Shown: one piece after another, positions 4,787 through 43,813 of the stretch
Layout: every line of letters starts with the position of its first letter
Numbering within the stretch: position 1 is the first letter of the stretch
Origin: Kiritimatiellia bacterium
GTDB lineage: Bacteria; Verrucomicrobiota; Kiritimatiellia; RFP12; UBA1067
Reading direction: 5' to 3'
Assembly: GCA_017628025.1 (NCBI GenBank)
Contig: JAGBZX010000027.1
Span: 1-43,813, forward strand
DNA length: 43,813 nt
Position numbers and translations under genes: made by a program
Notes under the pieces: model-generated
The model's database searches: none
Told to the model about the DNA's origin: nothing
Seen by the model: only the letters and a program-made list of their open reading frames with translations

Positions 4787-4814
4787 TTTTTAACAATCCT
4801 TAAGGAGACAAAAA

Positions 4815-20500: not shown

Positions 20501-20652
20501 TTGTGGAGATTCCTAAATTTGTAAAAGATGGTCAAAAATCTCCTAATGGTAGGCATACATTTTATACTTTTAGATTCTATTATAAATCAAATGCGAACAT
20601 GATACCGCCTTCTGGTCTTATGGGGCCAGTTAAAGTAACGTTCCTTAAATAG
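17548..20652 (+). CDS. Secreted GH106 alpha-L-rhamnosidase
   Basis: Predicted to release terminal alpha-L-rhamnose from pectin-like or rhamnogalacturonan chains outside the cell. Signal peptide at 1 to about 21. The GH106 opening is very clear: FVNPPVSAAPHVWWHWMNG, TADLEAMKKIGLAGAQSFD, SPQWYEMILHAHNEAKRLGL and NCSGYSASGGPW, followed later by ILVDSWEVGSQNW and AESFTTHPEEAGW with candidate catalytic glutamates. A C-terminal galactose-binding-like beta-sandwich starts near residue 850 (ILDGPWDVSF...GKVGELARVKVNG). At 1034 aa the length is normal. It lies 14 bases after argF without an evident promoter, so it may be read from the housekeeping operon. Confidence 0.93.
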   Translation: MKRFFGASFVAFLLLFKIANATGLYDAFVNPPVSAAPHVWWHWMNGNVTKEGITADLEAMKKIGLAGAQSFDCGCGIPFGGVKFASPQWYEMILHAHNEAKRLGLELCLANCSGYSASGGPWVKSEDAMKEVVIEEVSASKGESVYLPITSVTNGFYRDIAVVAFPTPKGISCPTRNITPKIIVNDDSQVYLFAFSNLTEISELKCSFKPKGILWEDNGRVDILIEKSLDGNAWEKCFSCVDNATPNYSISDKPHYHVFDKVKANFYKVTFKYKERWCMNSAKLQEVELGTFMRVAGYDSRLLFTARQSEDKIRFNNDGVVDISSVLVLPPKFDAASKLEWQVPDGNWTIMRVGYRNSGRKCSPASDFGEGYEVDKLDKNALDRFFDSYVAKLVKVCGIDPKENPVGRAGFNAILVDSWEVGSQNWTHGFEKTFEKKNGYSLLKFLPCFTGFVVGSLDETLKFCKDLRSTVEELFAENYADRLAERCRQSGLMLSVEPYSSQPCSSTRYARNVQLPMTEFWCSSTLPLQTGNTCKYVSSIAHIHGRKYTGAESFTTHPEEAGWQQTPRHFKAVGDLTYTHGVNRIIYHRFAHQPWVSEYAKPGMTMGPWGTHFERTLTWWDFAYDWVKYQTRCQYMLQEGKPSADILFYVGSKTPQDAIASVREGDKPNSNTYIPRGYDYDFIGTDSLKDLTVTKEGRIKTPGGVEYAFLAIPKEEKVYLKGALIVAHDEIRATLKNLNIMPRFESSDTYLHWISRDYSEGSEAWFICSEDRQNPHSAEVVLRDTQKFIPQVWNPITGERFIPKKWSRLSDGRVKISLEFEPSGSCFVVFAPDSKLVSKERKYINKQDVILDGPWDVSFREPRRGAPKAIKLLQLCDLSKHEESGVKYFSGTSVYKAKFVVPEGDWQKVVIDLGKVGELARVKVNGIQAPHLVWIAPYRVDITKCLMGAKEADLEIEVVNTWVNRIIGDVLEDLPMDWKWKGRRIVEIPKFVKDGQKSPNGRHTFYTFRFYYKSNANMIPPSGLMGPVKVTFLK

Positions 20653-27730: not shown

Positions 27731-30700
27731 TTACTGAATTTCGTTTAAACCAACCTTAAGCTCAATAGTTTGGCCTCCGAAGACAAAGGAGCCTTCAACA
27801 GGGGTATGGATTGAGCCAGTGGCTTTATTATTCTTAAATTCTAAATCTACCTTTATCCACCCAGTAGGGTGAGGATGAGTAGCTTTAATGTATTTTAAAT
27901 CTCCTGGGCAAGGCTTAATAATAACCTTTTTAAAGAATGGTGCATCAGAGGCTATGCCAGCTAGCCCTGTTTGCATAAACCAAATTGGGTGAGCCCCCCA
28001 AGCGTGACAGTCGCTACGGGACTCGTTTTGTCCATTTTTGCCGCCATCTGGCGCTTCTTGAGTAGTAGTGAGTCCTTTTTTAACGTAGCTACGCCAAAGA
28101 TCAAGGCGCTTTAAAAACAGATCGCCGCGCCCAAACTTAAAGTATGTCTCAAAGAGATAATAAGAGAAATATACAGTGCAGCGTTTTAATGTTTTGTCCT
28201 CTATAAGATTTTTCCAAGCAAGTTGTGCCTTGTCTTTTGGTAAAACATCACCAATAAGAGCTAAGCATTGTGCGTGTTCAGAGAAATTAAGCTTATCTGG
28301 AGTATCTGAGATCATTTGCCTTTTGTCGCACCAGAATTTATTGATAATAATTGGCTTAATCTTCTCAATCTTTTCTTCCCAATGTTTTGCTTGTAATTCA
28401 TTGCCTAGGGCACGTTCGGTCTTTGCGACACTTTGCATTGCAAGAACCCAAAGTAGATTATGCACGGCATTTACACCATCACCATGCCTTCCTCCAGGTA
28501 CAGTTCCATCGCCATTCCAGCCTTGAACCCAGTCTGTAAATAGCCAACCTGGTAAATTCTCTAGTAAGCCTTCTTTGTTTTCGTAAATTTCAAAGCCCGA
28601 GATACTTCTACGCATACCAGGGACGCGAGCTTTTAGCCATTCAATGTCGTTGTGATTCATTACATAATCACCATACATTAGTAAATAGCAAAGCGTGTAA
28701 GTAGCGCCTTCTTGTGTGCCGCGAGTCGGCCAGTTGAAGGGACATTGACCATCGTCTCGTGACGAAAGATCATATAATTCAATAGCACGTTTAATAATGC
28801 GGTCATCGCGGGAAACGGCAGAAAGTACATTGAGCTGCACGCGCGTATCACCTGGATACATTTGCTGCTCATAGAAGGGGCAGTCAAAGAGCATTTCGTG
28901 ACAGCACATCTGCATTGTGCGCATTGATATTTCGCGGATTGGAGATAGAGTCTTGTCGTCAGATTCAAATGTACTTTCAAGTTCTACAGGATAACGAGTT
29001 TCAACAAGTTCTATCTGTTCTACTGTTAGAGGCTCATCCTTTGTTTCTATATCAATTCGTATCCATTTGCCGCAACGGAACCACGGCACAGAGAATTTTG
29101 CATTAGTCCTACCATCAGAGATAAATGTGTCTCCATATCCTGGTAAATAGCGGCCTACGATTATGTTTCTAGAGCCAGGTTCAGAACCTTTTTTGTTGTC
29201 AGTTGCACGATGCGCAGATTCGTGCCAATTAATCGAAAATTTCGCTTCTTTACCTCCAGAAAGAACGACCTCGGGATATGCACAGTAATATCTACCAAGA
29301 TCCCACGCAATTTGCATTTTTGTATTGGCAGGTATGATGACTTTTTTCGAGAAATCTATTGTTTTTGTAGCTTCCTCTTTTGTAAAGACGTGTCTAGCGC
29401 GCCATTTTGTGTTAGTTGCAATCGCTACGACCTTACCTGGTAAGACGGCTTTCGCTAGTTGGTCAGGCAGTTGAGAGGGGAACAACATCCAACCATGATA
29501 ACGAAGGCCATAAATGTGAGGTCCTTCACGGCCAACAAAGCCGCGCACTTTTATTGGCGTAACATACTTATCAGGCGTTGCATCTTGTATGCCGCAGCCT
29601 TTTATTGTCCATTGAGCTCCCGTGCCCCACGCCCCGCCATCAGGATTGGTAGCGGTTATTCCTTTAAGAGTGCCGACTTTCCAGTTTTGTGATGTTCCAG
29701 TAGAAAGCTTGCGGTCATACGCGCCATTAGCTTTTAGCGCAAAGCCGCCTCGCCAAGAAAGTTGAGCTAACGGGCCTTTTTCTCTAAGTTTCCAGACTGT
29801 TGCTTCCATCACATGTTTGCCAGGCTCGAGATTAATAATATAAGTATTATATTGCCAATTCTCTACTGTTGAACGGTTAGGGCCGCGAGCTATGAATTTG
29901 CCATCAATTGATAAGTAAAATCTTTCGTCAGCAGATACGTCTATAACGAGAGTGCCATCGGTCTTTTCAACAGAAAATTCGTTACGAAATTTTACGAAAA
30001 CGGGCTCTGAGAGGGGGTCGCCATTTGGAGAAATGGCAATTTCGTCTTTGATATTTTGTGATATGCCGCTACTATTAGGTGCCCAAAGCCAGCACGCAGC
30101 GTCTATCGGTTGAATGCGCAAAATATTAGTGTTACCGCGCGTTACTCTAGCGTCGCGAAATACGCGTTGAACCATTGTGTTTTTCAATGAGTTCATTGCT
30201 GCAGTTTTAAGTTCTACAGCTCTTTTTTCATCAAGCCAATCAGGGCGATATGAGCATTTTGTTACATCAACGCCAAAAAGCTTTGCTGTCCATACTAGAC
30301 CTTGGAGATATTCTCCGACGCGGTTAAAATGAAAGTCGGGTTTTGTGAAAAGTGTATTACGGTCGGGGCAGAATTCTGCCGCAGTTCCTACAGGGATAAC
30401 TTCAAGGTTGTACATCGAGGCGAATTCAGCGTAGGCGTCATGAAGCCTAGCATACATTTCAACTTGGTCAAAACCAAATTTTTTAAGCCGCTTGTACCAA
30501 GGAGGGTAACTCCAAGTTTCTTGAAGGACAATTTTTGCGTCAGGGGCGAATTGTTTTATAGTTTTTACAATGTTATCGCCAAATGGATGATATGAGGCTT
30601 TGTCACAACTATGATGGCTTGCTTGTTGGATAGTAATAATATCCCATTTGTCAGCAGAGAGCATTTCGGGAATGTTAGCATAAAATTCTTTTTTGTTATT

Positions 30701-31042
30701 TTTATTATAGCGCTCAACTAATACCGAGGCAAAAGGCACGTTGGTTGGATTTTTTAAAGACGCATAACTCCATCTAATAAGATAAGGGTTAAAAGAGTCG
30801 TCATTTGCTTTTTCGATATTTGCCCAATGCTTTTCGAGAGAGCAGCCTCCAATGTACATTGACGCTAAATCAAGCTTTAACCCCATAGACTGGGCAATTT
30901 GAGGCATTTGCTTTAAGTTGCAAATCGAAAAGCTATTGCCTATCATAAGGATCTTAAGCTCTTGTGGCGGTTTTGTTTTAGTCTCTGCACCATTTAAGAA
31001 AAGTGCTACAAATGCAAAAAGGATAGATATAGTTTTTTTCAT
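27731..31042 (-). CDS. Secreted two-enzyme protein: SGNH-type esterase plus GH78-like alpha-L-rhamnosidase
   Basis: 1103 aa with a signal peptide (about 1-19). Residues 29 to about 270 are an SGNH hydrolase domain of DUF4886 type: ILMIGNSFS with the candidate nucleophile S37, GGCSLEKHW, ITIQQASHHS and a C-terminal DFHFNRVGEYLQG containing the Asp and His. The rest is a multi-domain rhamnosidase: a beta-sandwich (FYLSIDGKFIARGPN), then the (alpha/alpha)6 barrel with DCPFYEQQMYPGDTRVQ at about 718-734, GGRHGDGVNAVHN, NFSEHAQCLAL and CHAWGAHP, and a terminal beta-sandwich (PHPTGWIKVDLEF). It would deacylate and then cut rhamnosides. Its extended -10 promoter lies 10 bases upstream and there is no Shine-Dalgarno site. 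Confidence 0.88.
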   Translation of the reverse strand: MKKTISILFAFVALFLNGAETKTKPPQELKILMIGNSFSICNLKQMPQIAQSMGLKLDLASMYIGGCSLEKHWANIEKANDDSFNPYLIRWSYASLKNPTNVPFASVLVERYNKNNKKEFYANIPEMLSADKWDIITIQQASHHSCDKASYHPFGDNIVKTIKQFAPDAKIVLQETWSYPPWYKRLKKFGFDQVEMYARLHDAYAEFASMYNLEVIPVGTAAEFCPDRNTLFTKPDFHFNRVGEYLQGLVWTAKLFGVDVTKCSYRPDWLDEKRAVELKTAAMNSLKNTMVQRVFRDARVTRGNTNILRIQPIDAACWLWAPNSSGISQNIKDEIAISPNGDPLSEPVFVKFRNEFSVEKTDGTLVIDVSADERFYLSIDGKFIARGPNRSTVENWQYNTYIINLEPGKHVMEATVWKLREKGPLAQLSWRGGFALKANGAYDRKLSTGTSQNWKVGTLKGITATNPDGGAWGTGAQWTIKGCGIQDATPDKYVTPIKVRGFVGREGPHIYGLRYHGWMLFPSQLPDQLAKAVLPGKVVAIATNTKWRARHVFTKEEATKTIDFSKKVIIPANTKMQIAWDLGRYYCAYPEVVLSGGKEAKFSINWHESAHRATDNKKGSEPGSRNIIVGRYLPGYGDTFISDGRTNAKFSVPWFRCGKWIRIDIETKDEPLTVEQIELVETRYPVELESTFESDDKTLSPIREISMRTMQMCCHEMLFDCPFYEQQMYPGDTRVQLNVLSAVSRDDRIIKRAIELYDLSSRDDGQCPFNWPTRGTQEGATYTLCYLLMYGDYVMNHNDIEWLKARVPGMRRSISGFEIYENKEGLLENLPGWLFTDWVQGWNGDGTVPGGRHGDGVNAVHNLLWVLAMQSVAKTERALGNELQAKHWEEKIEKIKPIIINKFWCDKRQMISDTPDKLNFSEHAQCLALIGDVLPKDKAQLAWKNLIEDKTLKRCTVYFSYYLFETYFKFGRGDLFLKRLDLWRSYVKKGLTTTQEAPDGGKNGQNESRSDCHAWGAHPIWFMQTGLAGIASDAPFFKKVIIKPCPGDLKYIKATHPHPTGWIKVDLEFKNNKATGSIHTPVEGSFVFGGQTIELKVGLNEIQ

Positions 31043-31068: not shown

Positions 31069-33405
31069 TTATTTTTGCGATGATGCCGCGTTTCGAATGT
31101 GTTTTAGGGTGGTTTTTATTTCTGAGGAGTGAGGTAATATCTCCTGTGCCTTCATGGCAAGTGTCTCTGCCTCAGGATATTGACCTAAACGCAATAAAGT
31201 AATAGCTAGGTTATTTAAAACTGCTGGCTCATTAGGGGCTTTTACTAAACATTTTCTAAGATGCTTTTCCGCTCGCGCATACTGTTTATCAATAAAAAAT
31301 CCCATTCCCATAGCAAAGTTTGCTTTGACATTATCGGGATCATCATTTAGAATTCGCCACGCATATACTCTGGCTAATTTAAAATCAGCGCGTTCAAGAC
31401 TTAGCTTAAGTCCTTCTTGAGGGGTTAGGCGTAAGCCTTCTTGTTTGCCAATCCAATCCATTTTTTCTTGGATCTTACGCCACTCGGGGTTTGCTGTGTC
31501 TAGTTTGTCAGCTAAATTAGTTTCTAATTCAGAAATCTCAGTTCGTTGTTCTCTGCCAGCCTCTGTTGAACGCATTCTACACATTCTAGATAAACGCCAT
31601 TGACCAAATATAAAAAGGCGATTTAGGGAATCGTATCCATAACGAAATGCTTCCTCGTTCTTACAAACATCTAAAATGCGTTCGGCAAGTTTCCTAGATT
31701 TCCGAGCTGCATCCTCTGCCTCTTTAGGTGAAATTCCACCAGGGCGCAGTGTTAAGCCTGCAGTTTTTGGCATTGAGGTATAACGCCAAAGTTCCATCCC
31801 AACCTGAATAGCTATGTTTGACACACAAGGATTCTTTTCTTTTACCCATGTACGCAACGTCTCGGCTGTTCCGATTTCTAGAAGGGTGCGTGTTACTTCA
31901 TTAGTTTCACCACGTAGCCTAATAAGAACCTCATAAGGGCTGTTTTTAGACATCATAGAAAGAGCTTTTAATCGCCTGCCTTCCATTTTAGCGGCAAGTT
32001 CAACGCCGATATCATAAGAGCCATCAGTAAAAATCAAATTGCATCCGCTGCATTCAGCTGCAGTTTGTCGAGCAATGGCATTTACTATAGATGACATTTC
32101 GCGTATTGTTCCATCAAACTTGTAAATAAAGACTAGAGTTATTGCGACAAAAGGGACAAAGAATGCAAAAAAGCGGATATTCTTTATTAGTGTATGATAA
32201 GAGGCTATAATTCGCTTTAGAAGGCGATTCCTGGCAAGAATTGCTTCAGGGTATTTGTCTTCAAGGATTTTAATATGATCTCGGAAATATACATCTATTG
32301 CAAAAATATGTAGAGTAGACAACACTATAAGTGATGTTGCGCCAATTGCTAAAGAAAGTAGATATTGTGATTGATTTGCCGTGTCAATCCATCGCCAGAA
32401 ATGAGCTCCTTTAAAGGATGTTGACTGAATAAAAGATAGAATGCCCACTAGAGTTATGAAAACTGTGTAACGAATAGGCAGCAATTCATTTCTGTTACAA
32501 AGTTTGCCTTTGCGAACTAGAATTATTACTAGTGGTGCAATAACAAATACGCATAAAACAAAACCAAATGGCCAAAGTGCATCACGAATACTTAACAAAT
32601 AAAAGAAAAGATACTTAATGATTACAACAAATAGATTAATTTGAGTTTCAGCGCCGCCATTGTTCGAGCGGTAAAATGCGATGTTAATAGCTAGCGTTGC
32701 TACCCATGAGAGAAGAAAACACAAAACCATTCGCCGTAGGGCTACTGTGATAACGATAGCGTTGGCATAGAGTGGACGGTTGTCAAAAGGATTCGCTCCT
32801 AAATTTTTAAATCGTAGTAGAAAGACGAATAGAAGCGGCATCAAGAAGCCAATTGGCGTTTCTGCCGCCAGGATGCCAGAGGAGATACCCATTGCCAAGA
32901 GGCAATTGTAATTGAAATTGGCAGATAATGTGTGTATTAGAAGTAATAGCGTTGCCCATGTTAGTAATAACAGAAACATTTCGGGAGAAAAAACTCGCCC
33001 TAAAAGCCATACTGGTTCAGAAAAGATGAAAGCTATTGTGCTTACGAAAGAAATGACTATAACTATTATCTGGAGATATATTGAATCTGCTGTTTTTTTA
33101 TTTAGGGTAATAAAAGTAAAAAAGAAACGAAAAGTTAGTATCGCTAAAATTCCTAATGAAATTGCTCCAAATACTTTTAAAGCTTCTACACATGAGGCTA
33201 AACTACTAGTTTCAATAAAAAATGAAAGTAAATTATGCCACAGAAGTGGAAATTTATGTATAGGAGGGCGAAGTTTGGCAGCTACTGATAAATCCTGCCA
33301 TAGTTCAGGGGGAAACTCAAGATTGTTTTTTGAAAGCCATGAAAATGTAGCAATCAGAGCGCCTAGCCCTAATTGTAAGATTAGTGTTACTACACGTTTA
33401 AGCAT
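31069..33405 (-). CDS. Polytopic membrane protein with C-terminal TPR repeats
   Basis: 778 aa. The N-terminal half has about ten hydrophobic segments (for example 5-23, 75-100, 112-132, 140-165, 170-195, 225-245). A soluble part from about 430 contains NLIFTDGSYDIG, which resembles the TDGDND-type stretch of DUF2723 membrane proteins (putative glycosyltransferases with TPRs). TPR repeats occupy about 670-765 (FAMGMGFFIDKQYARAEKHL, LNNLAITLLRLGQYPEAE). It is the last gene of the surface-protein operon; its ATG abuts the PEP-CTERM stop. A role in glycosylating or sorting the secreted proteins encoded upstream is plausible but inferred. Confidence 0.75.
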   Translation of the reverse strand: MLKRVVTLILQLGLGALIATFSWLSKNNLEFPPELWQDLSVAAKLRPPIHKFPLLWHNLLSFFIETSSLASCVEALKVFGAISLGILAILTFRFFFTFITLNKKTADSIYLQIIVIVISFVSTIAFIFSEPVWLLGRVFSPEMFLLLLTWATLLLLIHTLSANFNYNCLLAMGISSGILAAETPIGFLMPLLFVFLLRFKNLGANPFDNRPLYANAIVITVALRRMVLCFLLSWVATLAINIAFYRSNNGGAETQINLFVVIIKYLFFYLLSIRDALWPFGFVLCVFVIAPLVIILVRKGKLCNRNELLPIRYTVFITLVGILSFIQSTSFKGAHFWRWIDTANQSQYLLSLAIGATSLIVLSTLHIFAIDVYFRDHIKILEDKYPEAILARNRLLKRIIASYHTLIKNIRFFAFFVPFVAITLVFIYKFDGTIREMSSIVNAIARQTAAECSGCNLIFTDGSYDIGVELAAKMEGRRLKALSMMSKNSPYEVLIRLRGETNEVTRTLLEIGTAETLRTWVKEKNPCVSNIAIQVGMELWRYTSMPKTAGLTLRPGGISPKEAEDAARKSRKLAERILDVCKNEEAFRYGYDSLNRLFIFGQWRLSRMCRMRSTEAGREQRTEISELETNLADKLDTANPEWRKIQEKMDWIGKQEGLRLTPQEGLKLSLERADFKLARVYAWRILNDDPDNVKANFAMGMGFFIDKQYARAEKHLRKCLVKAPNEPAVLNNLAITLLRLGQYPEAETLAMKAQEILPHSSEIKTTLKHIRNAASSQK

Positions 33406-34002
33406 TTAAGCTGCCTTCTTGTTATTACGCCGTCTAAGCGCAAAGAGCGCTCCGCCAAGAAGTACTAAAATAGAACTGTTTGGCTCAGGTACAACATAGT
33501 AAGAAGATGGAGCCCAGTATGTGGAATCAACTGGCGCAAGGTTATCCCAATTTGTTATGTGGTTGTCGGCAACAAGATCTCTGTAACTGACACTTTCAGA
33601 TTCCATCATGCCAGTCCAACGACCATCTGTCCAGTTGCCAAGTTCAATAACAAAACTGTAAGAAGCAGAGTTTTCAGCAAGTCCTGCTAGGCTTCCGTAA
33701 TATTCTGCTGGGAGTATGACGCCAGAGGCAGGGTTGGATTCTTGGAAAAATTCGTTGTTTTCGTCTAACCCCCAAAGAGGCAAATAACCATACTCGCCAC
33801 TTTGATTTTCATATCTGACGCGCGCTTTCTCTACTCCAAGTTCAGTAGCGTAGAAAACATTACCATCTTTGTCTTTGCCACTAATACTTTCAATATCTGA
33901 TATCATCCACCACAGCAGTTCTCCGCCTTCATCGGCAAAGGCGTTAAGTGAAGAAATTACTATTGCAGATAATAGCAAAATTTTTTTCATTATTTTCTTC
34001 AT
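33406..34002 (-). CDS. PEP-CTERM sorted secreted protein
   Basis: The C-terminus has the full sorting tag: VPEPNSS, a hydrophobic helix (ILVLLGGALFAL) and a basic RRRNNKK tail, recognised and cut by an exosortase. The start was set at the ATG at 34002, 1 base after the upstream stop, giving a signal peptide KKIMKKILLLSAIVISSLNAFA; the longer frame would place a non-signal stretch in front. The mature part (about 150 aa, rich in Trp, Tyr, Glu and Ser) matches no family I know. No exosortase gene is in the window. It is fourth in the five-gene surface operon. Confidence 0.88.
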   Translation of the reverse strand: MKKIMKKILLLSAIVISSLNAFADEGGELLWWMISDIESISGKDKDGNVFYATELGVEKARVRYENQSGEYGYLPLWGLDENNEFFQESNPASGVILPAEYYGSLAGLAENSASYSFVIELGNWTDGRWTGMMESESVSYRDLVADNHITNWDNLAPVDSTYWAPSSYYVVPEPNSSILVLLGGALFALRRRNNKKAA

Positions 34003-34003
34003 G

Positions 34004-37000
34004 CTATTCTTCAATCTCCGGAACAGGTAAAGAAATTTCAAATGCCTCGCCGCGTCTCATATACCAAAAACCAGTGCCAGCAGGTACTGTTGTGTCGTCT
34101 TTCCAAACGCCTCTTACAAATCTTCCCCAAGAGCGGCCATTCCATGTAAGATTAAGAGGAACATCTTTTTCGTTAGGTATGCGAATAACATCGCCCTTAT
34201 TGCCTGCAATTGGATTGTCTTGCCAGTTGTAGTCATTTACTTTTACTGCCTGCATATTGGGATTAGGCACTAGTGTGCAAACCATTGATTCTTCATCAGT
34301 AGTGCCTAAAATTGTTAGCGACACGGGATTCGTCGAATATTGACCAATAAGGAAAAACGGCTTTGCTAAAGGATCTTTGCGCTCAACCCATACAGCCATA
34401 TTGCGCTCAAGGCGATGCTCTACAGCAGGAACTGCCTGTTGTATAGCATCGCGAGTTACAGTTATTGCAGAGTCCCACTTTTTGCCATGTTTATCCCAAT
34501 TCCATTTTTGATAAATATGACCTTTGTTGGCAACTTGTACAGAATCTTCATGATCTAAATGTTTAGTATGCAAATATTTTGATACGGTGATTGGTTGCGA
34601 TGCGGTAGCAGGATCGTCACCCAATTGCACCCACGGTACGGCAGTAAGCGTATTTGTAAGCGAGCTTGGTATCTCGAGGACGCCAACGATGTTTGTCGAA
34701 GGGATTTCGTTGGTGATTGCATACTCTCCATCAGGAATAATTAATGTTGAAATTCTATAGAAGCCGCTAGCACCTACGGATTTTCCTTCTTCATCTAAAA
34801 GTGGAATAGAGAACGAGGGTGTTTTAACTGCCTGGCCAATGCGCTGCCAACCAGTAGAGTCATATTTGCGGATATCATACCATACGTCATAGCCTGTACT
34901 TAATGGAGGGGTCTTTTCGCTATCTTGAAGGGAGATATTAACACTTAAGCCATCCGAGCCTTCGTCTGCCATGCTCATTAATAATTGATTTTTATCAGTG
35001 CCTGTTACGATATTTTCCCATTTACGTAGACCATTTGCTTCGTAAGAATCTAGATTTTGGTTTATTTCCTCTTTGACAAAACCTTCTGCACGGTTGTATC
35101 CTAAGGCTGTTAATAAAGAATCTACAACATTGATTGGCAAGCGACTTAAATCCGCGCGTTGGGTAGCCTTGAATTCGGCCTCAGGGAAGCGAAAGTTCGC
35201 TTCATGAACAGCATTTGTTGTAATTCGACCTGATTTTTGGGTTGTTGTAATGTGAAGTAATTTAATTAGCCCATATGGCTCGGCGTCCCACTTAAAAACG
35301 TCTTCATTGCCAAAACTATTTATTGAACTATTGACATCAAGGGGCGCTATATCTGATTGTTCGTGTGTGTCAAAAAGTGATACAAAAGGATTTAATGCTC
35401 TAATATTGCCACTTTCATCTTGAATAGCAGGGGCGGCAAGTACCTGCACGCGGTAATTAGTATTTGTGTATTGCTCAAATTTCCAATCGCCAGTTGAATA
35501 TGAGATATCTCCAATATCGTAAGAACCATCTTCTTTTAAAGTGACTTCTCGAATTTCTGATGCTGCATTTTCTACAGGGGTAAGCGTAAGATCGGTAGCT
35601 AGTTGACCATCTGCGGTGGCGGCATCCCAAACCTTGATAGCAACCATATAGGGATGTTCTGTGCAATAGTTGCCGATGACAACGCAGTTTGACGCTACCC
35701 ATTCTGGTTTTGGTAATTCGTGATAAGAGCCACCTTGAAGAGAAAATGCATTTTTATAAGTAGAATCTCTAGCGCCTGTTACGGTGCCGGTCTTATTAGT
35801 AGAGCTGTCAGTTATTGTGACTCTAGCTGTGTCATTGCTAATGTGGAAGTCGCACTTGAGATTGAAACCTTTTAAATCTAAAAAAAGCTCAATATTTTCT
35901 GGTACAACTGCTGGTTGTGTCATCTTGTAGTCTTCATTAAGCTCCATATAAATAGGAGTTTCGCCGCTTTCTATAAGTTGGGCAACTTTTAAACCGTCCT
36001 TTGGAAGCTCATGAACAACATGCTTTGACCAGACAAGCGCATTGCCATCGATTTTACCGCGGTATTCATTGTCGCCATTCCAAAAGAACTGGCGAGCTTC
36101 TTCTTGGTCTCCGTCAAAATATTCCCACAAGCCGCCGAAACGCGTTTGTTGAGGTTCCTCCGAATTATCAGCTGGATATCGCACGCCGACCCAACCAGTA
36201 AAGCGTTGACCATCGTAAGTAAAGCCTTCAGGGTTGCTCTCATGGTAATTGACAAGTTTCAAGCGGTTAGCATAAGCGTTTTCTAGTAAATATGTTGATA
36301 CGTCATCTGGAATTTTAGAATTGTTGCTAGCTCTACTAAAATTATTGGAAATTACAGCCGTTCCAGTAATGTGTAGGACTGGCCCAGAATTGCCGAGATA
36401 AATGCCGCCACCGTTAAAGCCTGCGCCGCAAGTGTTGTTTGTAATGTAACCACCAGAAATATAGATATCGCCTCTTGAACTAATGCCGTAGTGGTCGGTA
36501 TTATCAACACGAGTTCCGTCAGTATGAATCGCGCCGCCCGCACCCTTGGCCACGCACCCAGCTATCGTGCCACCGGTCATAATTACAGTGCCGAAATCGC
36601 AACATATCGCGCCGCCTTTACCAGGAGAGGAGTTGTTGGTGCAATTGAGAATTGCAGCGCCGGAATTGATTCTTAATACTCCGCCTTCTTTAATATGAAT
36701 AACAGCGTTTTCATTTCTGGTGCTTGAAGCTAATGTTGCTTCTTTGATTGTTGCGCCATCATTTAGTACCATGCGCGCAATGTTCGTTGTTGAGCCGCTA
36801 ATCGTTCGTGGCATAAGTAAAAACACGTCTTCAATTTGGCTCATTTGCTGGCAATCATACGTAACATTAGTCATAGTTAATGTTCCGCCAGGGTGAATCT
36901 TTACACCATATGTGTAGCCGCGATTAGTTATTGTATATTTAGTTCCGTCTTTACTTTTGACAGTGATTTTTTTTCGAATTTCCACATCAGAGTTAACTCG

Positions 37001-37171
37001 AATATTTGCCTCGAGTTGGAGAATGTCGCCGTCTTTAGCGTAGTTTACTGCATAAGTAAATCGGTTTTTATTTGTTCCGCTTGACCAACTTTTAATTATC
37101 CATGTCTCTGCCAGAAGATCGTTAGCAATTGATAATACAGCGAAAAAGGCTAAATACTTTAAAATATTCAT
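34004..37171 (-). CDS. Large secreted parallel beta-helix protein
   Basis: 1055 aa from the ATG at 37171, which overlaps the previous stop (ATGA) and follows AAGGAGACGAG. A longer in-frame start would add MRRRRE before a good signal peptide (ILKYLAFFAVLSIANDLLA). Residues about 25-300 are a right-handed beta-helix with GGAI, GGAIHTDG and GGGIYLGNSG repeats typical of polymorphic surface proteins and pectate-lyase-like folds. The rest is beta-rich, ending in a module with GRFVRGVWKDDTTVPAGTGF then WYMRRGE. No catalytic motif is seen. Adhesin or glycan binding is the simplest guess. Confidence 0.82.
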   Translation of the reverse strand: MNILKYLAFFAVLSIANDLLAETWIIKSWSSGTNKNRFTYAVNYAKDGDILQLEANIRVNSDVEIRKKITVKSKDGTKYTITNRGYTYGVKIHPGGTLTMTNVTYDCQQMSQIEDVFLLMPRTISGSTTNIARMVLNDGATIKEATLASSTRNENAVIHIKEGGVLRINSGAAILNCTNNSSPGKGGAICCDFGTVIMTGGTIAGCVAKGAGGAIHTDGTRVDNTDHYGISSRGDIYISGGYITNNTCGAGFNGGGIYLGNSGPVLHITGTAVISNNFSRASNNSKIPDDVSTYLLENAYANRLKLVNYHESNPEGFTYDGQRFTGWVGVRYPADNSEEPQQTRFGGLWEYFDGDQEEARQFFWNGDNEYRGKIDGNALVWSKHVVHELPKDGLKVAQLIESGETPIYMELNEDYKMTQPAVVPENIELFLDLKGFNLKCDFHISNDTARVTITDSSTNKTGTVTGARDSTYKNAFSLQGGSYHELPKPEWVASNCVVIGNYCTEHPYMVAIKVWDAATADGQLATDLTLTPVENAASEIREVTLKEDGSYDIGDISYSTGDWKFEQYTNTNYRVQVLAAPAIQDESGNIRALNPFVSLFDTHEQSDIAPLDVNSSINSFGNEDVFKWDAEPYGLIKLLHITTTQKSGRITTNAVHEANFRFPEAEFKATQRADLSRLPINVVDSLLTALGYNRAEGFVKEEINQNLDSYEANGLRKWENIVTGTDKNQLLMSMADEGSDGLSVNISLQDSEKTPPLSTGYDVWYDIRKYDSTGWQRIGQAVKTPSFSIPLLDEEGKSVGASGFYRISTLIIPDGEYAITNEIPSTNIVGVLEIPSSLTNTLTAVPWVQLGDDPATASQPITVSKYLHTKHLDHEDSVQVANKGHIYQKWNWDKHGKKWDSAITVTRDAIQQAVPAVEHRLERNMAVWVERKDPLAKPFFLIGQYSTNPVSLTILGTTDEESMVCTLVPNPNMQAVKVNDYNWQDNPIAGNKGDVIRIPNEKDVPLNLTWNGRSWGRFVRGVWKDDTTVPAGTGFWYMRRGEAFEISLPVPEIEE

Positions 37172-39264
37172 CTCTCGTCTCCTTCGCATGCTAAGGCTCT
37201 ATAGTGAATTTTTTTGCCTTTTAGGTTTATACCATCAGCGGCAGAGTCCCAAGTGACGCGGTGGTCGCCAGAGCGATGTAAGTCGTGGCGATCTCCAAGG
37301 CGTTGAACTAGACTAACATTAGAATTCAAACGAAATGTTTTTAGTTGGATAGTGTTAGTTACGCCATTTTCTTCGTAACTTGCTAAAAATATTAATCTGT
37401 AATGAACGGCGTTTGTTTCTGCTACAGAGTAATCTATGTCTACAAGATTGTTCCACGGATATCGTTGTTGAGCTTTGTAAATTTGTGTTATTACTGGTTG
37501 GAAAATAGGTGTGATTACAATATTTGTTGTAACAGTAAATGAAAAAACATGTTTTTGGGCAGAGTTGGTAACTGTGTGATTATTGATTATCCAGCCGTTT
37601 AAATAGTGGGCACTTTCAGGAATGGCATGAACGGTAACAACAGAGTTAGAAATGTAGTTATCACCATATACGGTAATGCCAGAAACTTTGCCACCGGTGA
37701 AATTACCAAGACGAACCTCAAATATACCTGGAGGAAGTTCTGTATTTAAGTCTACTAGCGGCTCTATTGTCGCCGCTCCAATTGTGTTGTGCTGTACCCC
37801 ATTTTCATCAGGCAAGCGACTTGAACCATCGAATGTTACAGTTACAAGCATATTGACACTAGGGGTCAGAACATGAGGACCCAAGGGTATTATTTCTTCA
37901 CCTTTTTTATAACCCATTAGAGGAGTAGCATTCTCTGAAGGAGGATTAGCGAGAAATGCAGAATAATCAAAATAAGTGTCGACGGCAAGAGTGAAGGCGT
38001 AATGGTTTGTTTCAATAGAAGTCATTTCTGGAGCTAATCGCCAAGGTAAGGCTTCAGATTCTTTAAGTACTTTCGGATGGGAGAAATTAGAAGAATAATG
38101 AATGTCGTTTACTACATGATTGCCGCCTGCTGCGACAATGCCGTTTTCTGTGTAGCCAGCAAAGAGATTTTCGATTTTCACTGTGATGTTTGTCGCGTCA
38201 ATGCGGTCCATACCAGCGGTAGCGTCAATAGCAGTGTTGGCTAGGTGGCAGAAGTGGGCATCAGTTGAGCCTTCGTAGCGTCCCAACGAAACGCTATTAA
38301 CAAATTCTCCCGTATCGTAACCATTGTGGGCGAGGATAGAATTTGCGATATAAACGTTTCCTGCTCCACCAGCATTGCCGATAGCACCGCCAGCAGTTGT
38401 TCCGTGTTCTTTTGAAGTTGTTATGTTGCCAGTAAAGGTGGAGTTTAAGATATAAAGATTGCCGCCTTTGCAGTTGTTGATACCGCCGCCAATTTCGGTG
38501 GAGGCGTTATTTGCTACAATGCAATTGTTAAGACACATTAGTCCTTGGTTTTCCGCGGCACCTCCGCCATGAGCGGGACCTAAAGATTCGTTTTCTGTAA
38601 GCGAACAGCGATCCATAATAACCGTCCCGCTTTTATTATTTGAAGAAGAGGCGGAGTTTGCAAAATTAAGGATACCACCGCCATACCAATTGGCATTTCG
38701 AACAATATTGCAGTCAACAAGAACTGATGTAGCGCCTGGTTGATTTAAAAGCGCTGTTCCTGTGCGAGTAATATCAACTTCGTACATTACAAGGTGACCT
38801 TTGTTGTCAATTCCGCCAGTAGAGGTGCTGTCACCATCGACAATTTGTTTGCCCTCAAAACCACCCATTAAAGTTAGATTAGAAATAACAACATAAGCGT
38901 CAGCGGCGATGTTAAAAAGCTTGTAATTGCTGTATTCATCTTCGCTAGGCTCTATGATCATATCAAGAGTGTCGTTGTTGTTGCTGCTACCAAGTGTTAC
39001 ACGCCCAGATTCTGGCAAGAATGGCTTTTCTACTTGAATTATTTTCCTTTTGCCATTATCTGTGCCGTTAGCATGTAAATAGGCGTTGTTTTGAAGGGTG
39101 ATTGTCTTTGTGACTATCACTTTAGATACAGTATCATCTTCTAACGCCTGGCATAACTCGTCGTATGTTGATACTCTTACAGTTCTGTCTATTGGATCAA
39201 GTTCCTGCGCAAAGGCAAGAATTAATGAGAAGAAGCAGGAGGCTAGAAATATAATGTTTTTCAT
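37168..39264 (-). CDS. Secreted beta-helix surface protein
   Basis: 698 aa with a signal peptide (1-19, FLASCFFSLILAFAQ). Repeating Gly/Asn-rich rungs at about 170-330 (WYGGGILNFANS, HGGGAAENQG, IGGGINNCKGGN, AGGAIGNAGGAGN) define a parallel beta-helix like chlamydial Pmp or autotransporter passengers. Toward the C-terminus are a repeat domain with LNGWIINNHTVTN and a module beginning RYPWNNLVDIDYSV and ending in GDHRVTWDSAADG. No autotransporter barrel or PEP-CTERM tag is present. Second gene of the operon, 10 bases after the first. Confidence 0.82.
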   Translation of the reverse strand: MKNIIFLASCFFSLILAFAQELDPIDRTVRVSTYDELCQALEDDTVSKVIVTKTITLQNNAYLHANGTDNGKRKIIQVEKPFLPESGRVTLGSSNNNDTLDMIIEPSEDEYSNYKLFNIAADAYVVISNLTLMGGFEGKQIVDGDSTSTGGIDNKGHLVMYEVDITRTGTALLNQPGATSVLVDCNIVRNANWYGGGILNFANSASSSNNKSGTVIMDRCSLTENESLGPAHGGGAAENQGLMCLNNCIVANNASTEIGGGINNCKGGNLYILNSTFTGNITTSKEHGTTAGGAIGNAGGAGNVYIANSILAHNGYDTGEFVNSVSLGRYEGSTDAHFCHLANTAIDATAGMDRIDATNITVKIENLFAGYTENGIVAAGGNHVVNDIHYSSNFSHPKVLKESEALPWRLAPEMTSIETNHYAFTLAVDTYFDYSAFLANPPSENATPLMGYKKGEEIIPLGPHVLTPSVNMLVTVTFDGSSRLPDENGVQHNTIGAATIEPLVDLNTELPPGIFEVRLGNFTGGKVSGITVYGDNYISNSVVTVHAIPESAHYLNGWIINNHTVTNSAQKHVFSFTVTTNIVITPIFQPVITQIYKAQQRYPWNNLVDIDYSVAETNAVHYRLIFLASYEENGVTNTIQLKTFRLNSNVSLVQRLGDRHDLHRSGDHRVTWDSAADGINLKGKKIHYRALACEGDER

Positions 39265-39274
39265 AACTATACTC

Positions 39275-40021
39275 TTATTTGTTGCTTCTGATTACCTTGA
39301 AAAACCCGCTATTACCTTTTTTGCGTGTTACTAGTGTAATGTCTTCACTGTCTCCGAGAGTTTCGACGGCTGCGTCTGCAGAGTCTGAAGCAGAGACGCT
39401 TTGCCCAGAATTAACACGCATAAAGCCTTTTAGGTTTTCAACTGTTAAAAATGCATTCTCACCATCTATGCGAAGCGCTTTAATGCGTGGCTGTGCGCAA
39501 TCGGCAGGCGCGGCAGAAGGAGATGCTGTAATTGAGGTGTCTTCCAAAGTTGTTGAGTTGTTGGTCGAAGAGCGTTTTAGCGCAAGGTTAGCAGTTGCTG
39601 CGCCATATGCGTTTATCACGGCAAGCTTGCCGTTTGTTGTGCCATAAGGACGAGTGGAGTTTTGAGATGCTATTCGCGTATCAAGAAGGTAGACAGCGTA
39701 TTTGCCGCTCGAAAGTTCGTCAGCTTCTGATGCGGGAATTTGAAAAAGAACTAAAGGGCAACGGCCGTCTTTAGCGATAGGAGCGATAAGGATAATACGG
39801 TCATTTTTGTCGATACATTCACCATCGGCAGAAAAGCCTTCAAATACTCCGTCAGTGGACCAAACAAGCGCATAACATTCTCCGTCCAAAACTATTGAGC
39901 CGTCTGCGTAACAATCAGGACCGCGCGTATAGAAAGAAAGGCGAGCATCTTCAACACTATTTGCGAAAGCAAAAGCGAGGAAGTTTATACAAAACCAACT
40001 AAATAACGCGTTTTTAATCAT
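39275..40021 (-). CDS. Secreted protein, first gene of the surface operon
   Basis: The start was set at the ATG at 40021 (MIKNALFSWFCINFLAFAFA, a signal peptide). The longer frame to 40039 would begin inside the -10 element. The mature part (about 225 aa) has a beta-rich N-terminal half containing ARLSFYTRGPDCYADGS and a C-terminal GNSGFFKVIRSNK, an ending seen in other secreted PVC proteins (recalled, not searched). A Ser/Thr/Ala-rich linker lies at about 150-175. Function unknown. A near-consensus promoter directs a predicted leaderless transcript. Confidence 0.78.
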   Translation of the reverse strand: MIKNALFSWFCINFLAFAFANSVEDARLSFYTRGPDCYADGSIVLDGECYALVWSTDGVFEGFSADGECIDKNDRIILIAPIAKDGRCPLVLFQIPASEADELSSGKYAVYLLDTRIASQNSTRPYGTTNGKLAVINAYGAATANLALKRSSTNNSTTLEDTSITASPSAAPADCAQPRIKALRIDGENAFLTVENLKGFMRVNSGQSVSASDSADAAVETLGDSEDITLVTRKKGNSGFFKVIRSNK

Positions 40022-40029
40022 AATTTTAT

Positions 40030-40058
40030 AGTATATCATTTGGCATCAAAAAAGTCAA
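40030..40058 (-). promoter_or_regulatory. Strong promoter of the surface operon, predicted leaderless
   Basis: On the minus strand TTGACT (40058-40053), a 17-base spacer, then TATACT (40035-40030) preceded by TGA. The ATG at 40021 is only 8 bases downstream of the -10, and no Shine-Dalgarno site is present. It is the best -35/-10 pair in the window. Confidence 0.8.
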
Positions 40059-40183: not shown

Positions 40184-43100
40184 ATGAAAAAAATTTCTTT
40201 TGCGATGGTCGCACTTTTGTTTGGTATTCGAGCTTTGTTTGCAGAAAGTGCTTATCCTGGCTATACGCTTTTGCAATGGGTAGAAGCTAATCGTAATCAG
40301 TATGTTGATACTGGGATAAAACCGCAATCGGGATTAACGATAACTGCTGATATGCGTCTTTTGGCTAACGATCAGCCAAGGATGGCAATATTCGGTGGTT
40401 CTAACAATGATTCCGCTAGTTCTACTACAGTTGGTGTGTCAAATCCTATTGGTATTTCTACTAGACTTTCAAGTGATAACAAAAAAGACGTTGACGATTG
40501 GTCTTTTATACGTCTTCATGGTCGAACGTATTCCTCAAATAACACGACTGCAAGAGGAACTATTTCTTGGGCTAAGCACCGTCATATTGGACAACGTGCA
40601 ACTTGGAAGTTAGATAAGGGTATATTCTCGTTTAATGGATACAAGCCGGATTTTGATGCTTATACAGATAAAAAACTTTCTGCTACAAATAATATTTATG
40701 TCTGTGCGATGGGAGGGCCCAAAGGTGCTTCATCAAGTTTTTCTCCTGCAGCGATGATTCTTTATTCGTTTCAGATTAAAAACTCATCTACCGTTTTAGT
40801 AAATTTAATACCGGCAATTCGTGATTCCGACGGGGCTATAGGTCTATTGGATACTGTAAAAGTGAAATTTCATGAGAATCTTGGACCTAAGCCTTTTATA
40901 GCAGGCCCACGAGTAATTTCTACTTACCCAACTTTAGAGCGCGTTTATAGTGGCTTTCGATCCGAACTTACTGTTTCTGGTTATACCGGAGGGGAGGCTG
41001 TACAATCTGGGCTTCCTGTCTTAGTTAGAATATCGCCAGATAAAATACCTGGCTTTAGTTATAGCTCTTGTCTTGAAGGTGGTGCTGATGTTTTCTTTGC
41101 TACAGATAAAGAAGGGCAGAGTCGTCTAGCGTGTGATATTGATACGTGGAATACTTCTGGTGAGTCGCTTGCGTGGGTGAAGCTTCCAGAGGTAACAGGA
41201 ACAGATACAAAGTTTTATATGTTTTGGGGAATAGGCGAAGAAGCTAAAAGACCATCTTCAACTGAGGTGTGGTCAGAATATATCGGTGTATGGCACATGA
41301 ATGAGTGCGATCCAGTTATGGGTGTAAGGGATGAAACAGGGCATGGCTTTAATGCAACAAACTCAACGACTAATGTTTCAACTCCAACCGAATCTCCTTT
41401 TAGTACAGGACTTAATCTTTCGCACGGTCTCTATGCGCCTAACTATGAGGCAGTTTCAACTTCATCTACAAATACAGTGCCAGATGTTTTTTCGGTATCT
41501 TTCTGGTTTAAAAAACCTGATGGTGTAGGTGCTGGCGAATACCATGATATTTTGAGAAAGTATGCTACTGTTAATAGCAAGTATAGAATAGGATACTGCA
41601 TTCAGGTCGTAAATGGTTCTACTGTTAATTTTACAGACTATGTTGCAAATGCGAAAAACGGTGGCGCCTCTGGGAAAAGCCCTGCAAATACTTCTGGTCC
41701 TGATTTTTCTCAGAATTGGTTGCATCATGTGTTTGTGACAACAGGCACAAATCATACTTCTTTTGTTAATGGTGTGCAAAAGGTTAAAAACGCTTGTGAC
41801 TCTAAGACTGACGCGGCGGGTAAATACAATTCATCATTAAGGTTTGGATTAGCATCAACGTCGATTTCGATGGACGAAGTGAGAATTACTCGCGTTCCAC
41901 GCAGTGCTTCATGGGTTAAGGCAGAGTATGAAACGATGACTAATCCTGATTTCGTTGTAGCGGCAAGTGCCGAATCGCTTCAGGCAGCAGTCCTTATTTC
42001 AGGTACGCCCTTAGAGTATGCTGAAGATGCAGTTCAGTATGGAACTGATGTTGATGTTTCTATTGGTGTTGCTAAAACATACTCAGCACCTACTATTCAT
42101 GAAATAGCTCCTTCGTATAGAGCCGTGTGCGAAGGTTGGACGCTTGCTCATTATGATACAGATTTAGGTTTTGTTACTACTAGAACATCTAAAGAGCCTA
42201 TTACAGGAGAGAATGCTACGACTTGTATATTATCCCCAACAGGATATGATTCGCTTACATGGCTTTGGCGAGAAGAGTATTTAATCGATGTTTTGCCTCA
42301 GACAGATGGGACTGGTTTAATTCATGGCGCTGGTTGGACTACAAAAAATGAAGAAGTTACTATTACGGCCGAACCGCTTGAGGGATATTATTTCTACAGT
42401 TGGGTTGGCGACACTGAAGGAAATGATATCTTTTCTCCTAGTATAACGTTGACGGCTGATTCAAGTAAAAAACTTCGTGCAATTTTCCGTCCTACAACAG
42501 ATTTTGTTTTCGAGTGCAACGAATCTGGCACAGTTAACTTTTTTGATGAGTCAAATTGGGCAAATGGCAATGTTCCTAATTCAGATGGTTCCTCAGCAGT
42601 GATTCTGCGCCGTCCACCAGCGGGAGTAGATGTTGTTTTAACGGCAGATGCTCCTCTTAATATTGCTTTACTTGATGTTTGTTATGGAACAGGAGAAGGG
42701 TCAATTACACTTGATTTTGCTTGTGGGCTAGAAATGAATCGAGTTGTAGGAGATGTAATATTAAGAGATGGCGCAGTATTGTCTCATGCGCGTCATTCTG
42801 ATACTGCAAACTCAAAAACTTATGCACTAAATCTTGAAGTTGGTGGTAATATGACTATTGAAGATGGTGCTTCGGTAGATGCCACAGCTAAGGGTTATTA
42901 TTTTAAAAAAGGTCCCATGCCATGTGACGGTTCCAATTATCAAGGCGCTGGACACGGTGGAACTTCACAAGGCGGGTATAATACTGATACATATAGAGTT
43001 TCTGCAAATAAGTGTTATGGTTCTATTCGCCGTCCAGATCAACCAGGCGGTGGTGGCGGCACAACTAATGGCACAAAAAATTACGGTGGCGGCGTTATCC

Positions 43101-43813
43101 ATTTGATAGTCAAGAATGGGACTCTTACAGTAAATGGGTCAATAGGTGCAAATGGTGGTAATACATCGCATTCTTCACCAGCTGGAGGAAGTGTATGGAT
43201 TGAATGCGGCACACTTGCTGGTACTGGCTCAATTGATGCATACTCTGGCAGAGCAAGCACTTATTCACATGGCAGCGGCGGTCGTATAGCAATAAGGCAA
43301 TATATAGCTAATGATATTTCCTCTTACACCGGTCTTATTCGAGCAGGGCGCAATCCTGTAATGAATGAAAGCTACAATACTTGCCATTCCGTAGGTTCGA
43401 TATATATAGAGAACGCGAATGACGCCGAGGATAGAGGCGAACTTGTTGTTGCAGGCTACGGTTATCTTTCGGCGCTTTCTTCAATGGCATGTCGTCTTGA
43501 TTCAACTATTGAAGATATTGACATCCCGTTTGGTAAGGTGTCGGTTAAAAACAATGCGCGTCTTGAGATCCCGACGGGCGTCACGCTTAAGGTAGAAAAA
43601 GGTATAAGCGTTACTGGTAATGGTGATTTTCATACTGTTGCTAATGGCGGTGCCATTGAAATGATGCCGGGTGAAGACGGCTCGTTCGTAGTTGAAGGGC
43701 TAGTAAAAGCATATGAGATTTATTGTACAAATTCTCCAGGCGCTACGATATCGTTTGCCCAAGGCGCAGAGCTGCGCAATTTGGAAAATGGCACAATTAA
43801 ACTTTTAGGAACA
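40184..43813 (+). CDS. Giant multidomain secreted surface protein (3' end beyond window)
   Basis: The frame is open from the ATG to the window edge (1210 codons). Signal peptide at 1 to about 20 (KKISFAMVALLFGIRALFA). Domains in order: an N-terminal module beginning YTLLQWVEANRNQYVDTG (about 28-240, concanavalin-like); a DUF2341-type domain (LPVLVRISPDKIPGFSYS, about 275-350); a LamG-like domain (IGVWHMNE...SVSFWFKK...MDEVRITRVPRSA, about 366-585); an InlB-type repeat (EGYYFYSWVGDTEG, about 700-770); then a long Gly-rich beta-solenoid (GGGVIHLIVKNGTLTVNGSI, SPAGGSVWIECG, GSGGRIAI). It is probably an adhesin or glycan-binding surface protein. It diverges from the minus-strand surface operon across a 162-base intergenic region. 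A clear promoter was not found; TTAGGGT before the ATG is a weak ribosome site. Confidence 0.85.
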   Translation, partial: MKKISFAMVALLFGIRALFAESAYPGYTLLQWVEANRNQYVDTGIKPQSGLTITADMRLLANDQPRMAIFGGSNNDSASSTTVGVSNPIGISTRLSSDNKKDVDDWSFIRLHGRTYSSNNTTARGTISWAKHRHIGQRATWKLDKGIFSFNGYKPDFDAYTDKKLSATNNIYVCAMGGPKGASSSFSPAAMILYSFQIKNSSTVLVNLIPAIRDSDGAIGLLDTVKVKFHENLGPKPFIAGPRVISTYPTLERVYSGFRSELTVSGYTGGEAVQSGLPVLVRISPDKIPGFSYSSCLEGGADVFFATDKEGQSRLACDIDTWNTSGESLAWVKLPEVTGTDTKFYMFWGIGEEAKRPSSTEVWSEYIGVWHMNECDPVMGVRDETGHGFNATNSTTNVSTPTESPFSTGLNLSHGLYAPNYEAVSTSSTNTVPDVFSVSFWFKKPDGVGAGEYHDILRKYATVNSKYRIGYCIQVVNGSTVNFTDYVANAKNGGASGKSPANTSGPDFSQNWLHHVFVTTGTNHTSFVNGVQKVKNACDSKTDAAGKYNSSLRFGLASTSISMDEVRITRVPRSASWVKAEYETMTNPDFVVAASAESLQAAVLISGTPLEYAEDAVQYGTDVDVSIGVAKTYSAPTIHEIAPSYRAVCEGWTLAHYDTDLGFVTTRTSKEPITGENATTCILSPTGYDSLTWLWREEYLIDVLPQTDGTGLIHGAGWTTKNEEVTITAEPLEGYYFYSWVGDTEGNDIFSPSITLTADSSKKLRAIFRPTTDFVFECNESGTVNFFDESNWANGNVPNSDGSSAVILRRPPAGVDVVLTADAPLNIALLDVCYGTGEGSITLDFACGLEMNRVVGDVILRDGAVLSHARHSDTANSKTYALNLEVGGNMTIEDGASVDATAKGYYFKKGPMPCDGSNYQGAGHGGTSQGGYNTDTYRVSANKCYGSIRRPDQPGGGGGTTNGTKNYGGGVIHLIVKNGTLTVNGSIGANGGNTSHSSPAGGSVWIECGTLAGTGSIDAYSGRASTYSHGSGGRIAIRQYIANDISSYTGLIRAGRNPVMNESYNTCHSVGSIYIENANDAEDRGELVVAGYGYLSALSSMACRLDSTIEDIDIPFGKVSVKNNARLEIPTGVTLKVEKGISVTGNGDFHTVANGGAIEMMPGEDGSFVVEGLVKAYEIYCTNSPGATISFAQGAELRNLENGTIKLLGT

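Follow-up and report, generated by a model that had tools for sequence, protein, structure and literature searches.

A recurring pair of a two-repeat domain and a PEP-CTERM protein, enlarged to a surface-protein operon with a predicted glycosyltransferase in a Kiritimatiellia bacterium

Why should a bacterium encode large secreted proteins that carry no sorting tag in one operon with a single small protein that does? PEP-CTERM proteins are diverse, are mostly encoded by lone genes, and have no known function. The question is raised by a five-gene operon at positions 31069–40021 (minus strand) of contig JAGBZX010000027.1 of a Kiritimatiellia bacterium (assembly GCA_017628025.1; genome G000 below, its contigs numbered C). 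This contig of 43,813 nucleotides (nt) is the window analyzed here, one complete contig of a 1.45-Mb genome that is 71% complete. A first-pass annotation had read the operon as five tightly joined genes that may make a surface fibre or adhesin, one of them for a PEP-CTERM-anchored partner. That interpretation was partly right; the larger result is a recurring pair, a two-repeat domain followed by a PEP-CTERM gene, of which the window operon is, to judge from its sequence, an enlarged version.

Five minus-strand open reading frames (ORFs), G1 to G5, were confirmed with corrected starts. They are indeed tightly joined, by 10 nt between G1 and G2, an ATGA overlap between G2 and G3, 1 nt between G3 and G4, and 0 nt between G4 and G5. 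The one small PEP-CTERM protein is G4 (198 amino acids [aa]; 33406–34002, minus strand). It is secreted and has a PEP motif, a hydrophobic stretch, and a basic end; the sorting tail (VPEP, hydrophobic stretch, RRR; 33427–33492, minus strand) scores above the curated cut-offs of both PF07589 (22.2 bits; cut-off, 20.7) and TIGR02595 (23.8 bits; cut-off, 16). The tail is kept among relatives (alignment A2), and the middle of the protein is poorly conserved, with a mean column identity of 31%. We looked for an exosortase and found a PF09721 gene (152.8 bits) at a separate locus of the same genome (C29:851–1600), adjoined by an EpsI-like gene; this genome has one exosortase, and 55 of 58 relatives have it too. 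G4 is predicted from its tail to be sorted by this enzyme. The tail, and a single genomic exosortase with an EpsI-like neighbor, are what the locus has in common with the PEP-CTERM/exosortase (EpsH) system.

The gene directly ahead of G4, G3 (1,055 aa; 34004–37171, minus strand), encodes a secreted protein with a probable beta-helix in its N-terminal part and a separate C-terminal domain, G3C (233 aa; 34007–34705, minus strand). The AlphaFold2 (AF2) model of G3C (alignments A4 and A6) is confident beta structure (pLDDT, 90.1; pTM, 0.83), and by our own reading of the model strands and the alignment it appears to be built of two similar halves. The six other PEP-CTERM genes of the genome lie on three short contigs, each 11 to 70 nt behind a gene for a two-repeat protein of about 200 to 240 aa that has a VGY motif (VGY type), and all seven PEP-CTERM genes of the genome come after a two-repeat domain. 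A two-repeat gene directly precedes 54 of the 56 PEP-CTERM-like frames in 40 regions from the genus. A wider tally was made from 109 TIGR02595 hits among the matches listed, 108 of which mapped to a fetched region; a G4 gene from one of the four-gene modules described below enters it only where it lies inside a region already fetched. Within the genus, own genome included, 55 of 59 of these hits had a two-repeat gene directly upstream; 3 lacked one, and for 1 no frame could be used. In the converse direction, genomes G000 to G014 gave 59 two-repeat matches, of which 47 have a TIGR02595 hit less than 1.1 kb downstream, and three of the remaining 12 (fetched loci L032, L038, and L042) precede a G4 gene that the hit list missed. 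This pairing supports the proposal that a large surface protein has a PEP-CTERM partner. The arrangement also departs from the described norm: in Haft 2006 (PMC1569441), most PEP-CTERM genes (>65%) are single-gene operons behind large intergenic regions, unlike the 55 of 59 that stand second in a pair here. A literature search among Creative Commons-licensed PubMed Central articles found no paper on two-repeat/PEP-CTERM pairing.

Do the two-repeat proteins form a single family? Aligned against the G3C alignment (A4), 35 VGY-type sequences gave an hhalign probability of 99.1 (E = 5.4e-18; 211 columns), and on this sequence comparison G3C and the VGY-type proteins are one family. The window's own G3C is not among the A9 matches at E ≤ 1e-5, the family link being made via G3C profiles. 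Profiles from three family seeds converged on equal-sized ORF sets (82, 81, and 82 of 1,640) with 0 reversed decoys; being iterated, these profiles lean toward their own set. Neither Pfam nor NCBIfam holds a name for G3C or the VGY-type proteins. Matches of the G3C fold in the PDB were weak (best Foldseek E, 0.052; best VIA-align Z, 4.7, for 79 residues that all lie in the second half), and we therefore name no fold for it. Profile matches between alignment A6 and kelch proteins of a designed kind (E = 3.9e-6) covered about 40 residues with no single stretch passing and were set aside. The closest model is TIGR02597, an NCBIfam "paralog" model of the Verrucomicrobiota that carries no assigned function. 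It is a remote relative (hhalign probability, 97.0; E = 1.2e-10; 134 columns, from 2 sequences only), and a PEP-CTERM gene comes immediately after in 6/6 of its loci across the phylum. The window lineage itself, however, does not match the model, for which membership asks a score over 50 bits: the genome gave no match at E ≤ 0.001 and G3 none at E ≤ 1, and VGY-type, short G3C-type, and G1-type relatives gave none at E ≤ 0.5.

The simplest reading of the pairing would be an exosortase-sorted PEP-CTERM protein whose two-repeat partner may bear a cargo. The domain occurs free-standing (about 250 aa; 22 complete frames of ≤330 aa) and also at the end of large proteins (28 of 55 frames exceed 500 aa, up to 2,843 aa, with some longer frames elsewhere). 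These sizes bear on an alternative, which we consider unlikely, in which both proteins are structural subunits of a fibre or coat, with no division into anchor and cargo, and G5 glycosylates the coat. Side-by-side translation would serve its stoichiometry, the pair in its most frequent form consists of two small secreted proteins, and each genome has several pairs; yet the two-repeat domain is often the C terminus of a very large protein, a place more in keeping with a docking role than with a repeated structural unit. The least probable of the alternatives weighed here makes G4 a short-lived, membrane-tethered helper in folding or processing that the exosortase frees once its client is done. 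The fixed order, partner and then PEP-CTERM gene, and the poorly conserved middle of G4 (31%) would suit such a helper, but helpers are usually shared, and a separate G4 accompanies every client here. In cohesin-dockerin and sortase-anchored pilus systems, a constant C-terminal domain is placed on varied cargo and its receptor is anchored separately. A pair formed by a docking partner and a sorted PEP-CTERM protein would work in a similar way, by analogy and with no sequence relation implied.

How much of the operon travels with this pair was judged from the neighborhoods of its last gene, G5 (778 aa; 31069–33405, minus strand). The single G5 sequence found no match when compared with genome contigs, and an alignment-based scan did find loci, 67 of them true (L072 to L138). 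Another set, L032 to L071, overlaps these, with many identical contigs, and synteny was counted from L072 to L138 alone, in the 60 of 67 loci whose sequence extends 700 nt or more beyond the start of G5 on its upstream side, each protein being searched by profile. G4 stands beside G5 on the same strand in 51/60 loci and lies within 300 nt upstream in 46/60; G3C accompanies G5 in 50/60 and G1 in 35/60, with G1, G3C, and G4 all present on the same strand in 35/60. The G3C-G4-G5 order is kept in most loci, and G1 shifts between first place, the position between G4 and G5, and a position behind G5. G2 homologues are limited to L082, a locus also numbered L036, and, in part, to L044. Because G2 is so rarely kept, the unit consists of four genes (G1, G3C, G4, and G5) and not the five first noted. 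The core genes are together in most relatives, and the original idea of a functional group, which genes found apart would have spoken against, survives. Gene order thus indicates that the grouping is no chance association. The age of the four-gene unit is enough for identity between G5 of relatives and the window protein to have dropped to about 25 to 44%. Of 35 genomes in the genus, 29 have strong G5 matches; of 23 genomes from elsewhere in the order, none has a full-length one. When 288 genomes were sampled across the phylum, every near-full-length match fell within the same family. Named relatives of G5 are in metagenome-assembled genomes (MAGs) labeled Kiritimatiellae, "Verrucomicrobia," or "Lentisphaerae," many from the guts of ruminants and other animals.

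What might G5 contribute? It had been described as DUF2723-like with tetratricopeptide repeats (TPRs) and as the group's own glycosylation or export factor. The TPRs stand: the C-terminal domain (residues 660 to 778; 31072–31428, minus strand) passes Pfam cut-offs and matches designed TPRs (Z = 17.9). The DUF2723 label finds no support in Pfam, whose DUF2723/TMEM260 model PF11028 gave no G5 hit at E ≤ 1. The AF2 model, built from the window and relatives' sequences (alignment A5; pLDDT, 90.2), matches the catalytic subunit of oligosaccharyltransferase (8agb_A) over residues 1 to 556 (Z = 17.0; root mean square deviation [rmsd], 5.6; 399 aligned) and the Pmt1-Pmt2 O-mannosyltransferase (6p25_B) over residues 1 to 434 (Z = 16.4; rmsd, 5.3; 352 aligned). 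By the tool's own note, Z values that reach about 13 for helical bundles may carry no meaning; the 17 of G5 exceeds that. Furthermore, 59 of 60 aligned sequences have D or E at residue 37 or 38, within the loop that follows the first transmembrane helix; in the window protein, Q37-D38 (33292–33297, minus strand) would supply the candidate catalytic acid. By its model, then, G5 has a GT-C fold with a near-invariant acid in its first external loop. A one-to-one hhalign comparison with relatives' TMEM260-like proteins (probability, 87.3; E = 3.8e-6; only 191 columns) takes in this same loop.

The TMTC1-4 and TMEM260 O-mannosyltransferases (CAZy GT105/GT117) and bacterial DUF2723 proteins are the nearest comparison. 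G5 is like them in its predicted GT-C module, its first-loop acid, and its C-terminal TPRs, and by analogy in the beta-rich candidate substrates encoded next to it; it is unlike them in giving no PF11028 hit. In PMC11292533, human TMTC1-4 and TMEM260 are described as GT-C enzymes whose TPRs are thought to select immunoglobulin-like beta domains. On the basis of the predicted GT-C and TPR fold, the first-loop acid, and this likeness, we take G5 to be, as a prediction, likely a dedicated protein glycosyltransferase, in keeping with the glycosylation half of the original proposal. An export (PrsT) role was rejected because only the generic TPR part matches TIGR02917 (45.7 bits; cut-off, 312). Elsewhere in the genome, a second G5-related membrane/TPR protein of 1,042 aa is encoded outside the operon (L154:2768–5893, minus strand, on C11), G5-profile frames of similar length in other families have a weak PF11028 match, and a true PF11028 protein is encoded on C18.

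The best explanation overall, which we hold tentatively and somewhat short of an even chance, is that the operon makes one surface complex with a sorted G4, its partner G3C, a cargo, and its own glycosyltransferase. G3, and probably also G1 and G2, would be secreted, and G4 would be secreted too, its PEP-CTERM tail letting the cell's exosortase sort it. G3C and G4 would be produced as a pair of partners, so that the large beta-helix part of G3 would be retained at the surface as cargo. G5 would pick the operon's own beta-rich proteins via its TPR domain and glycosylate those chosen at the outer face of the inner membrane. The binding of G3C to G4, the action of G5 on the operon proteins, and the surface role are what we infer here from gene order, pairing, and predicted folds.

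Several observations count against this explanation. G5 occurs without G4, G3C, and G1 in 9/60 loci and must therefore have further substrates, and the Pfam glycosyltransferase families gave no hit for G5. In other families of the order, among the matches listed, 20 of 49 TIGR02595 hits are paired, 28 PEP-CTERM genes have no two-repeat partner, and 1 is without a frame. In addition, distance matrices of G3C and G4 correlate weakly (Spearman, 0.246; the highest of 300 permutations reached 0.267), below both G4-G5 (0.496) and G3C-G5 (0.365), and covariation thus gives a specific G3C-G4 contact no support. The loci with G5 alone and the weak correlation would both be expected if these were simply co-transcribed surface genes spread by duplication, with G5 acting in a general glycan pathway. 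We regard this as improbable, since order and strand are kept at about 30% identity over many MAGs, even though G1 moves.

The pairs elsewhere in the genome differ from the operon in looking like silent cassettes linked to a recombinase, an arrangement suggesting that partner/PEP-CTERM pairs are exchanged in the manner of a shufflon. On contigs C21 (L167), C42 (L168), and C28 (L169), five of the six VGY genes have no in-frame signal peptide; their frames begin shortly before the VGY codons, 4/5 behind a common non-coding upstream block. The one intact copy with a signal peptide is at L167:2414–3139 (minus strand). Overall, 28/69 frames have no signal peptide, which is an upper bound since the signal-peptide rule is crude. 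In relative G002, identity among the six copies compared is 98% over the 15 nt at the VGY codons, 66% in the preceding bin, and about 36 to 53% beyond; the pattern is not uniform, the VGY peak being lower or shifted in genomes G001, G009, G016, and G017. Tail-to-tail pairs of two-repeat genes carry inverted repeats at their starts, at the VGY codons in L240 (1–35/3558–3592; 97% over 35 nt) and L243 (1134–1177/3886–3929; 91% over 44 nt), with a further pair in L239 (922–1021/3652–3751). Contig ends fall inside the repeats in all three loci; of 23 contig ends checked, only 9 have an 18-mer in common with another cassette locus. A phage-integrase-type recombinase on C42 (L168:3233–4093, plus strand) starts near the VGY junction in divergent orientation. 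In eight genomes, 4 of 8 integrase genes that by our reading score more weakly than Xer-like recombinases have a two-repeat gene no more than about 1.9 kb away; recombinase genes near two-repeat genes are on C27 of G001, C14 of G002, and C255 of G009. Nothing in the window operon points to involvement in cassette switching. AbiEii/AbiEi-type toxin-antitoxin genes lie between and beside PEP-CTERM cassettes (L169:1455–2781 and 4349–5218, both minus strand). Promoter invertons near PEP-CTERM genes have already been reported in Akkermansia (PMC11892184).

A broader proposal, possible in our view although doubtful, is that exosortase systems of the Verrucomicrobiota type have two parts, a widely reused two-repeat docking domain, either free or ending giant surface proteins, and a dedicated PEP-CTERM receptor that is produced with it and holds it. 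In the present family the unit would exist in a fixed form with a TMTC-like glycosyltransferase, the window operon, and in a recombinase-switched form. In the latter, a tyrosine recombinase would join silent receptor/partner pairs to an expressed signal peptide at the VGY codons.

The remaining features of the locus are as follows. A sigma-70-like promoter (TTGACT-17-TATACT with a TG before the -10; 40030–40058, minus strand) precedes the operon, as had been reported, and the start codon lies only 8 nt past the -10, making a leaderless operon mRNA plausible from the spacing. G1 (39275–40021, minus strand) is a secreted protein of 248 aa starting at the ATG at 40021, another ATG at 40039 falling in the -10 region; it belongs to an unnamed family, with no hit in Pfam or NCBIfam. 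G2 (698 aa; 37168–39264, minus strand) is secreted, with a probable beta-helix and a divergent InlB B-repeat (PF18998, 28.4 bits, over the cut-off). The beta-helix labels of G2 and G3 proved weaker than originally stated, and we keep them as probable: neither protein reached the cut-offs of the right-handed beta-helix adhesin models (Pectate_lyase_5, 21.9 versus 24.3 bits for G2; Chlam_PMP, 15.7 versus 20.6 for G3), and a PDB sequence search on this point gave no match of note. Downstream of G5 by 26 nt, on the same strand, a DUF4886 and GH78 rhamnosidase fusion gene (27731–31042, minus strand) has its own TGGTATAAT element just ahead of its start and lies outside the conserved group. Upstream, sharing an intergenic region with the operon, a divergent gene for a large secreted protein (40184–43813, plus strand) runs off the contig; its product combines an InlB B-repeat domain with a LamG-like stretch that scores below the Pfam cut-off. 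The GH95 and GH106 glycoside hydrolases encoded at 133–2433 and 17548–20652 suggest, from sequence, the use of fucose- and rhamnose-bearing glycans.

In sum, a domain that stands nearly always beside PEP-CTERM genes in one genus, and repeatedly across the phylum, offers a testable partner for the exosortase system, and its pairing with PEP-CTERM proteins could explain how large proteins without a tag stay at the surface. G5, in turn, offers a bacterial counterpart of TMTC/TMEM260 with likely substrates in the same operon. Its place beside those substrates would open to direct testing whether exosortase sorting is linked with glycosylation.

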